A stretch of DNA of 42,760 bases from Candidatus Acetothermia bacterium (lineage in GTDB: Bacteria > Bipolaricaulota > Bipolaricaulia > Bipolaricaulales > Bipolaricaulaceae). The notes beneath the pieces were generated by a model. The model was not told the origin of the DNA, did no database searches, and worked only from the letters and a program-made list of their open reading frames with translations. The stretch spans positions 1 through 42,760 of the forward strand of contig PWTL01000008.1 of the NCBI GenBank assembly GCA_003562845.1. Reading direction: 5' to 3'. This document shows positions 1 to 23,338 of the stretch, piece after piece (positions within the stretch are counted from its first letter, which is position 1; every line of letters starts with the position of its first letter). The position numbers and the translations under genes were made by a program.

Positions 1-45
1 CCTGCGAAGCGCGTGCACTGCGAGCTTGCCGAAAGCGTTTCCCAT
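1..45 (-). CDS. 5' end of an unidentified gene running off the window edge (MGNAFGKLAVHALRR...); an in-frame ATG at about 60 is an alternative start
   Basis: Minus-strand ATG at 45 preceded by GGAGGAGG; lies directly downstream of a GEMM-I-like riboswitch; only 15 codons visible. Confidence 0.5.
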   Translation of the reverse strand, partial: MGNAFGKLAVHALRR

Positions 46-61
46 GGCTTCCTCCTCCATG

Positions 62-138
62 TACGCTTCGGCAACCGGGCGGCCTCACGGAGGCCCACGG
101 CTTTGCGCCCCGCCCTCACGGGTGGTTCGCCGTTATCG
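62..138 (-). ncRNA. c-di-GMP-I (GEMM-I) riboswitch-like aptamer
   Basis: Minus strand reads GGCGAACCACCCGTGAGGGCGGGGCGCAAAGCCGTGGGCCTCCGTGAGGCCGCCCGGTTGCC: GGCRAACC, GNRA-capped stem, GGGRCGCAAAGCC core, P3 hairpin and GGTTGCC closing strand. Confidence 0.8.
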
Positions 139-163
139 GCGTACTGTGCTTGTTACCTAAGTG

Positions 164-487
164 CTAACTGTCTTTCCGAAACCGGCCCTGTATCGTCAGG
201 GCCCGATCCACGTGCGATGCGTCAACAAGACCCTCTTCGACCAGAATCTCACCGAGCTGGCGATTGCTATCCTTGGAGCGCTGGCGTTCCAGCGCGGCTT
301 CCAGCTCCCTGGCGTTAAGCGTCCCCAGGTCCATCAGGATCTCGCCAATCCGTTTGCCTTGCTCGAAGTGCTCCTCCAGAATGGACAACACGACCGAGGA
401 GCGGGACTTGCGCTCGCGCAAGGCCTTCTGGTCCACAAGATCCATCAAGTACTGGTCTTCATCGCTGTAATACAACGTTACCTGCAT
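164..487 (-). CDS. Small protein with N-terminal ribbon-helix-helix-like segment and two tandem MshEN/GspE-N-like motifs
   Basis: 107 aa; RIGEILMDLGTLNARELEAALERQ and QLGEILVEEGLVDASHVDRALTIQ match the 24-residue MshEN-type pattern; preceded by riboswitch, terminator and promoter. Confidence 0.75.
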   Translation of the reverse strand: MQVTLYYSDEDQYLMDLVDQKALRERKSRSSVVLSILEEHFEQGKRIGEILMDLGTLNARELEAALERQRSKDSNRQLGEILVEEGLVDASHVDRALTIQGRFRKDS

Positions 488-528: not shown

Positions 529-549
529 AAAAAACCGGACCACCGGTTT
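529..549 (-). terminator. Intrinsic terminator directly after the riboswitch aptamer (expression platform)
   Basis: Minus strand AAACCGG-TGGT-CCGGTTT followed by a T run. Confidence 0.8.
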
Positions 550-624
550 CGTCCCGGCAGCCCGGCAGCCCGATCTGGGTCCGCGGCTTTGCGCCCTCAC
601 CTTCCAGTGAGTTTGCCCTTTACA
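549..624 (-). ncRNA. c-di-GMP-I (GEMM-I) riboswitch
   Basis: Minus strand AAAGGGCAAACTCACTGGAAGGTGAGGGCGCAAAGCCGCGGACCCAGATCGGGCTGCCGGGCTGCCGGGA: conserved GGGCAAAC, GNRA hairpin, GGGCGCAAAGCC, GCTGCCGGGCTGCC. Confidence 0.85.
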
Positions 625-646
625 GGACCTCTAAACCCTACAATAC

Positions 647-675
647 ATCATATGGGCGCAGGGGAGACCTGTCAA
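647..675 (-). promoter_or_regulatory. Sigma-70 type promoter for the riboswitch/MshEN-like gene
   Basis: TTGACA (675-670), 17-nt spacer, TATGAT (652-647) on minus strand. Confidence 0.75.
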
Positions 676-750
676 TGGGACACATGTCTGTGATGGACGC
701 TACCGCGAAGTGGGACTTCCAATCTGTCACTCAAGACGCGCCCTACCGGT

Positions 751-1800
751 TCACCGCCCCGCCGCAGCGCCAGTGGCGGCAGCCGTGTCCACAAGACCTG
801 CCCCGGTGTGCTGGTCGCCGGGGGAACGTCCCACGTCAGCAGCGGTGGACTGGAGCATGGACCTGAGTTCGCTCGGGGAAAGCTCTGGGTTCAGCGACAG
901 CATCAGCGCGGCAGTGCCCGAAACGTGCGGGGCGGCGAACGACGTTCCCGATCCCGTGCGGACACTTCCTCCTGGGTAGCTGGAGAGAACGTGCACTCCG
1001 GGAGCTGTCAGATCCACCTCAGGCCCCCAGTTGGAAAACGAAGCCGGCTGGCCCTCCTGGTCCACGGCGCTCACGGTGAACACTTCTGGGTAACGTCCGA
1101 AGTACCCTACTCTGGCGCCATCATTTCCGGCTATTCCCACGATGAACACGTTTTCTTGCGCTGCTCTGTGTAGAGCCTGGCGGACGATGGTCGGAGGCTC
1201 TATCTTCGCGTAGATGGACAAGTTGATGATGCGGGCACCGTTATCCACAGCATAGTCGATGGCCTGGGCCAGCTTCGGCCAGTCCGAGGCAAAAAACAGC
1301 CCCCGCGAGTCCAAAAACCGCAAGTCCATTATCTTAATCTGCGGGGCGACTCCGCCCGCGCCGGACTCCGCATCGAACGCCGCCGCGATGAGGCCGGCGA
1401 CGAACGTCCCGTGCCAGTTCAGCCGCGAACCCTCCAGCGAGTCGGCGTTCCCGTCCCGAAAGTCCCAGCCGTGGACGTCATCAACGTAGCCGTTGCCGTC
1501 ATCGTCACGACCAGTGCCGGCCTGTTCGCCGGGGTTTATCCACATACAGTCGGCCAAGGCCAGGACGGTACGATCGATGCCAGAGTCGATCACTGCAACG
1601 ACTATCTCCTCCGTCCCTCGGGTGATCTCCCAGGCCTCCGGGGCGCGTACTGCGGACAAGCCCCAGCTTGGCTGCGAACCAGACGGGAGGATGAACCCCG
1701 CTGCACCGCCTGCCAACCGCGGGCCCTCACCTACACCCAGACTGAGAATCAGAAGAACTGCTGCGGCTAGCACCCAGAACAACCTGTTCATCGTATTCAC
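751..1800 (-). CDS. S8 (subtilisin) family serine peptidase, secreted
   Basis: Signal peptide; catalytic motifs VIDSGID, WHGTFVAG, GTSFAAPHVSGTAALM. Confidence 0.95.
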   Translation of the reverse strand: MNTMNRLFWVLAAAVLLILSLGVGEGPRLAGGAAGFILPSGSQPSWGLSAVRAPEAWEITRGTEEIVVAVIDSGIDRTVLALADCMWINPGEQAGTGRDDDGNGYVDDVHGWDFRDGNADSLEGSRLNWHGTFVAGLIAAAFDAESGAGGVAPQIKIMDLRFLDSRGLFFASDWPKLAQAIDYAVDNGARIINLSIYAKIEPPTIVRQALHRAAQENVFIVGIAGNDGARVGYFGRYPEVFTVSAVDQEGQPASFSNWGPEVDLTAPGVHVLSSYPGGSVRTGSGTSFAAPHVSGTAALMLSLNPELSPSELRSMLQSTAADVGRSPGDQHTGAGLVDTAAATGAAAGR

Positions 1801-2921: not shown

Positions 2922-2997
2922 GGTCCCGTCGTCTAGCGGCCTAGGATACCGGGCTCTCATCCCGGCGACACGGGTTCAAATCCCGTCGGGACCACCA
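2922..2997 (+). tRNA. tRNA-Glu (CTC)
   Basis: Acceptor GGTCCCG/CGGGACC, anticodon loop CTCTCAT in a CCGGG/CCCGG stem, T-arm ACGGG-TTCAAAT-CCCGT, encoded CCA. Confidence 0.95.
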
Positions 2998-22836: not shown

Positions 22837-23108
22837 GTCCGTGCGGACCGCCGTCGCGGGAGGGCCGCCGGGCGCACCCAGATCGCGGGCTCAGGCCAAG
22901 GTTTCCCCTATCACCCACAGGGACCGGCTTACCGCTGCTCCCTTCCGGGTCTGACGGGATTCACCAGTGTGTGTCGCAGGGGGCTCAGCCGTCAACGCCC
23001 CGGTTTCCAGGCCGCTTCCAACTCCCGCTCCCTCTCGGGCAGTCCATCGGCCCCACATATAGCGGGTTTTGGGTGCAGGGGACCGCTAGCCCCCCGCCGT
23101 GCACGGAC
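22837..23108 (-). ncRNA. ffs: Signal recognition particle RNA, large (Bacillus-type, with Alu domain)
   Basis: Minus strand has GTCAGACCCGGAAGGGAGCAGC (domain IV), Alu-type GCGGGGGGCTAGCGGTCCCCTGCACCC...GGGGCCGA at the 5' end, and GTCCGTGC/GCACGGAC pairing the ends. Confidence 0.93.
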
Positions 23109-23248: not shown

Positions 23249-23338
23249 TGGCGGAGGGGGTGGGATTCGAACCCACGGCACCCTTGCGAGTGCACCGGTT
23301 CTCCAGACCGGTGGTTTAGACCGCTCGCCCACCCCTCC
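23249..23338 (-). tRNA. tRNA-Ser (GGA), class II with long variable arm
   Basis: GGAGGGG/CCCCTCC acceptor, loop CTGGAGA (anticodon GGA), variable arm GCACTCGCAAGGGTGC, GGTTCGAATCC T-loop, encoded CCA. Confidence 0.95.

Follow-up and report, generated by a model that had tools for sequence, protein, structure and literature searches.

A small gene with predicted sensor and DNA-binding domains between two riboswitches

We analysed the whole of one contig (PWTL01000008.1, 42,760 nucleotides, hereafter the window) from a 1.45 Mb, 85% complete assembly of a Candidatus Acetothermia bacterium. Acetothermia is the older name of the phylum Candidatus Bipolaricaulota. The gene in question encodes a small protein in which a ribbon-helix-helix (RHH)-like N-terminus is followed by two motifs of the cyclic di-GMP (c-di-GMP)-binding MshEN type, and it is flanked by two predicted c-di-GMP riboswitches, RS1 upstream and RS2 downstream. 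Computation shows the domain make-up (less securely for the RHH part) and its conservation, together with the riboswitches and the order of the genes; the main features are as follows.

164-487, minus strand: RHH-MshEN gene, an open reading frame of 107 residues with an ATG start, represented in a 65-member family alignment and present across the class
359-487, minus strand: RHH-like N-terminal domain, residues 1-43, with Q2, T4, R26, S28, S30 and E38 invariant and Y6 98% conserved
281-352, minus strand: MshEN motif I, residues 46-69 (RIGEILMDLGTLNARELEAALERQ), backed by profiles, conservation and structure match
188-259, minus strand: MshEN motif II, residues 77-100 (QLGEILVEEGLVDASHVDRALTIQ), backed by the same three lines of evidence
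552-626, minus strand: RS1, a c-di-GMP-I (GGC-type) aptamer (RF03167, 59.2 bits against a gathering score of 59; RF01051, 59.1 bits; our own covariance model, 80.8 bits)
67-141, minus strand: RS2, a second c-di-GMP-I riboswitch, 22 nucleotides after the stop codon (RF01051, 50.7 bits; our own covariance model, 70.3 bits)

An earlier interpretation made from the DNA letters alone (the sequence-only reading) had pointed to this reading frame, to both motifs and to a c-di-GMP riboswitch upstream, all of which we confirmed, RS1 scoring just above its gathering score. Its statement that no ATPase domain follows the motifs likewise holds for the 107-residue frame. RS2 and the giant surface protein encoded beyond it were absent from that account.

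The fused RHH-MshEN protein forms a conserved family. Among 100 genomes from the class (Candidatus Bipolaricaulota), the N-terminal domain was present in 71; the protein often occurs in several copies per genome, and a 99%-identical protein occurs in a near-identical relative, Candidatus Acetothermia PXEP01000228.1. Our distribution samples comprised 389 genomes (~289 of them outside the class) and 195 from another phylum; among ~480 genomes outside the class we found no full-length match, the matches listed there covering the MshEN half only. Plasmids gave no match and one viral contig held the MshEN half only, and we rejected a phage or plasmid origin on these grounds. The window's own genome encodes at least five GGDEF domains, and its only proteins matching the MshE-related motif model NF053729 are two RHH-MshEN paralogues. 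Three members with no detected riboswitch (L039 2457-2801, L044 2386-2724 and L064 4253-4573, in our locus labels) have a gene nearby that resembles one for a PlsY-type acyltransferase.

Riboswitches on both sides of the gene

Both aptamers exceed the RF01051 gathering cut-off of 35 bits. The columns corresponding to what we take to be the ligand-contact nucleotides of c-di-GMP-I aptamers, G20, A47 and C92, are kept in RS1 and RS2 and are invariant or nearly so in 35 aligned aptamers (column mapping by eye). Both are predicted to bind c-di-GMP. We counted riboswitches around 68 family genes, some of which come from closely related genomes and are not independent events, using a covariance model built here and, on the upstream side, 400 nucleotides of the same strand. 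An aptamer stood upstream in 38 of the 68 (typically 40-65 nucleotides away), downstream in 31 (typically 2-45 nucleotides away) and on both sides in 26, the window included; genes with both span at least three taxonomic families. This pairing is far beyond chance, since a genome carries ~5 such riboswitches. At many loci, including the window, the downstream aptamer lies too close to the stop codon for an ordinary promoter, and RS2 is therefore probably co-transcribed with the gene. Elsewhere, at L040 3116-3255, two tandem c-di-GMP-I riboswitches precede a 134-residue protein whose N-terminus resembles a signal sequence and which matches nothing in Pfam.

Direction of switching and the question of feedback

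The expression platforms and the promoter region contain the following elements.

534-566, minus strand: RS1 intrinsic terminator with a 13-bp stem, its 5' arm overlapping the aptamer 3' strand
89-93, minus strand: CCUCC in the 5' strand of RS2 P3, a possible anti-Shine-Dalgarno, weak in folding
647-675, minus strand: sigma-70-like promoter upstream of RS1, TTGACA-17-TATGAT (11 of 12 matches; 0.3 expected in shuffles)
679-688, minus strand: dyad GACATGTGTC adjoining the -35 element, a candidate operator and part of a wider family motif

In folding of the free RNA, the RS1 terminator beats the aptamer with which it shares an arm, so read-through is predicted when c-di-GMP holds the aptamer in place. 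Many RS1 leaders, from many genera, have terminators that take the 3' strand of the aptamer as their 5' arm, and RS1 is thus predicted to be an ON switch acting by antitermination. Tight-type RS2 leaders are free of terminators, and their Shine-Dalgarno sequence lies only a few nucleotides further on; among 22 such cases, almost all have CCUC(C) in the 5' strand of P3, where most RS1 aptamers have CCC. From these features we infer translational control by RS2.

The sequence-only reading had suggested that a c-di-GMP-responsive DNA-binding protein under a c-di-GMP riboswitch would form a feedback loop. This loop is the less well supported reading: because the upstream platforms look like ON switches, c-di-GMP would turn the regulator on, and a feed-forward operon is better supported. 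Negative feedback would require either that RS1 be an OFF switch or that the c-di-GMP-loaded protein repress its own promoter, so that c-di-GMP damps the regulator. RHH proteins commonly autoregulate, the dyad abutting the -35 element is strongly conserved among seven genera of the taxonomic family, and the window's RS1 retains a terminator-like hairpin, all of which would fit such a loop. However, the shared terminator arm predicts ON switching in many leaders, and the wider motif containing the dyad, GGACRRATGTCC, has 100 sites in 40 family genomes (5 for a reversed control) and is present in almost every genome of the family, among them five with no detected RHH-MshEN gene. Its sites also precede unrelated genes, read by eye as encoding, among others, a secreted protein, a TauE-like permease and an extracytoplasmic function (ECF)-like sigma factor (for example G000:C56:16117 and L116-L205). 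We therefore dropped autoregulation through the dyad, regard the GGACRRATGTCC sites as a candidate regulon only, and consider negative feedback unlikely.

An RHH-like N-terminal domain

The sequence-only reading had also described the N-terminus as RHH-like, which is upheld at the level of the family but not for the window protein by itself, which reaches no RHH model. PF01402 (RHH_1) matches 46 of 65 family members at E<=1 (best 4.4e-5, residues 1-45) and, when the N-terminus alone is compared, 17 of 22 members; CopG- or Arc-like PHROGs match some members, the window protein not among them. Across the 65 relatives, the alternating conserved Q2, T4 and Y6 (T4 invariant, Y6 98%) are as expected of an RHH DNA-reading strand, and R26, S28 and S30 of the RKSRS turn are invariant. 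A template-free AlphaFold monomer model, computed from an alignment of two near-identical sequences (mean predicted local distance difference test score, pLDDT, 79; predicted template modelling score, pTM, 0.63), has two N-terminal helices in helix-helix topology, and Arc, CopG and CdbA are among its weak Foldseek matches. The N-terminal domain is thus likely, but not proven, to be of RHH type, and it would be expected to bind DNA. Residues 29-53 form one unbroken helix in the model, the second helix of the RHH part continuing as the first of the MshEN part, a continuity that might link ligand binding with DNA binding.

A protein of this kind might instead act as a nucleoid-type factor, binding many DNA sites and being released by c-di-GMP, as for CdbA of Myxococcus. 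Small size and frequent multiple copies per genome would suit this role. CdbA, however, binds c-di-GMP through its RHH fold, whereas here a separate ligand domain is predicted, and the riboswitch in the leader points to expression that is conditional, not constitutive; we regard the nucleoid role as rather improbable. Alternatively, the RHH-like part could be a dimerisation module only, making the protein a c-di-GMP adaptor with another protein, and not DNA, as its partner. While the low RHH profile scores and the lack of a solved RHH relative by sequence are compatible with an adaptor, Q2/T4/Y6 and the RKSRS turn are positions of DNA-contact type in RHH proteins, and matches to RHH_1 and to CopG-like and Arc-like families turn up repeatedly among the members, which leaves the adaptor a quite improbable explanation.

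A minimal MshEN domain

The tandem 24-residue MshEN pattern proposed by the sequence-only reading is present in both stretches as written, separated, as claimed, by a short linker, here of 7 residues. NF053729 matches the window protein at 60.2 bits (cut-off 38; E=1.2e-16) and all 65 homologues at E<=1. A search of the PDB with the family profile recovered PilF, PilB and MshE (best 2.1e-21; 5htl at 3.2e-6), bearing out the expected MshEN similarity, and Pfam gave no MshEN-type model for the window protein at E<=10. A Pfam match to FumaraseC_C (5e-5, under its cut-off) was judged a look-alike of the LGEIL repeat. The MshEN half of the AlphaFold model resembles MshE with c-di-GMP: 5htl is its best Foldseek PDB match (probability 0.99, 1.2 Å over 53 residues, E-value 0.59), in keeping with the four-helix bundle fold of the domain.

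Gly3, Leu21 and Gln24 touch the ligand in MshE (PMC5013675). Gly3 and Gln24 are kept in 65 of 65 relatives in both motifs, and Leu21 in 65 and 64 of the 65, respectively. Motif position 1 is Arg in motif I of the window protein and Gln in motif II, where most relatives have Pro, Leu, Arg or Lys. Arginine at this position appears dispensable, because GSPII-B of PilF binds c-di-GMP at 6 nM without arginines, with Lys and Leu there (PMC11731258). The MshEN assignment is strongly supported by profiles and model, and the 107-residue protein would be expected to bind c-di-GMP. That this half is a structural remnant that has lost c-di-GMP binding, as in XpsE of Xanthomonas campestris pv. campestris (Xcc), is very improbable: motif II does depart from the pattern at position 1, as does the linker, but drift would have erased the contact Gly, Leu and Gln that are near-invariant in both motifs over 65 members, and the 6 nM binding by PilF GSPII-B does without the arginines. 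In a second small family (~107-115 residues; L078 4325-4672 and L045 97-420), the N-terminus joined to a tandem MshEN-like motif is a different one, not of RHH type.

Downstream and neighbouring genes

The gene that follows RS2 is represented in the window by its first 15 codons.

1-45, minus strand: start of the downstream gene, which in the near-identical relative encodes a 2013-residue secreted repeat protein

The 2013-residue protein carries DUF7507, DUF11 and Big (immunoglobulin (Ig)-like) domains, and comparable giant repeat proteins lie downstream at other family loci. To judge from this domain make-up, the giant protein probably serves as a surface adhesin. The window encodes a secreted subtilase (751-1800, minus strand; Peptidase_S8, E=7e-48) immediately upstream of the RS1 promoter. 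Several relatives also have a subtilase next to the RHH-MshEN gene; at L055 it has a riboswitch of its own, and at L059 it lies directly upstream, in the same orientation. The window also contains a large bacterial signal recognition particle (SRP) RNA (22839-23106, minus strand), tRNA-Ser(GGA) (23249-23338, minus strand) and tRNA-Glu(CTC) (2922-2997, plus strand).

A proposed feed-forward operon reading one signal three times

We propose, with a probability of roughly 60%, that the protein is a small c-di-GMP-responsive transcription factor heading a c-di-GMP-ON operon that also includes the RS2-controlled giant protein. Its N-terminal RHH domain would dimerise and read DNA, and a minimal MshEN domain of 55 residues, joined to it by a continuous helix, would bind c-di-GMP. 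The gene would be the first of the operon, switched on by c-di-GMP through antitermination in the RS1 leader, and RS2, just past its stop codon, would control translation of the next gene, for the giant secreted Ig/DUF11 repeat protein. One signal would then be read three times, by RS1 at the level of transcription, by RS2 at the level of translation, and by the protein product, which may adjust this or other promoters.

Several observations weigh against this proposal. The RHH domain of the window protein matches no RHH model on its own in profile searches, an N-terminal profile search of the PDB gave no RHH relative, and the putative beta-strand has a pLDDT below 50 in the monomer model. Motif II starts with Gln rather than Arg, Lys or Leu, the linker has 7 residues against 5 in MshE, and the C-terminal subdomain of MshE's MshEN, which makes one ligand contact, is absent. 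In folding, the residual hairpin and U-run of RS1 could still terminate transcription with the aptamer formed, and the anti-Shine-Dalgarno pairing of RS2 is weak. Finally, for ~44% of family genes the 400 nucleotides upstream contain no riboswitch.

If the proposal is correct, the MshEN domain would gain a DNA-binding output beside its listed enzyme and signalling partners (ATPase, glycosyltransferase, REC, HD-GYP, CheA, CheX, cyclase and kinase; PMC5013675), and the operon would stack two kinds of receptor, RNA and protein, for one second messenger. Such layering of a single signal within an operon looks undescribed. The literature searched, which takes in few subscription papers, describes no RHH-MshEN protein, although this is not proof of absence; two papers in it mention both MshEN and ribbon-helix-helix. 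A broader idea, which we hold tentatively as nearly but not quite an even bet, is that these proteins form a class of c-di-GMP transcription factors with MshEN sensor and RHH reader, and that two riboswitches and the protein, each sensing c-di-GMP, together gate a giant surface protein in three layers, in a bacterial phylum that is mostly uncultured and has been little studied. The locus makes testable the reading of a single signal at transcription initiation, termination and translation, as well as c-di-GMP targets in this phylum.

Comparison with known systems

Ligand control of RHH proteins is familiar from the NikR/MetJ type; in NikR the RHH is N-terminal and the ligand domain behind it is a separate one. 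The ligand of that type is a metal or S-adenosylmethionine, whereas for the window protein a cyclic dinucleotide is predicted. CdbA and CdbB of Myxococcus xanthus (PDB 6sbw) are likewise RHH-type proteins tied to c-di-GMP; CdbA, however, binds it via the RHH fold itself and has no MshEN domain (PMC7156744), in contrast to the separate MshEN sensor predicted here. With the MshEN/GSPII domains of MshE, PilB and PilF (PDB 5htl, 8pdk), the window protein shares the tandem 24-residue motifs, the four-helix bundle and the conserved c-di-GMP contacts, but it differs in having neither ATPase nor C-terminal subdomain, in its 7-residue linker and in its fusion to an RHH-like domain. RS1 and RS2 belong to the same aptamer family as the c-di-GMP-I and c-di-GMP-I-GGC riboswitches (RF01051, RF03167), with a terminator or Shine-Dalgarno platform. 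Tandem arrangements of c-di-GMP riboswitches are known (PMC12452182); unlike these, the pair in the window is not stacked in one leader but split by the gene for a protein with c-di-GMP motifs.
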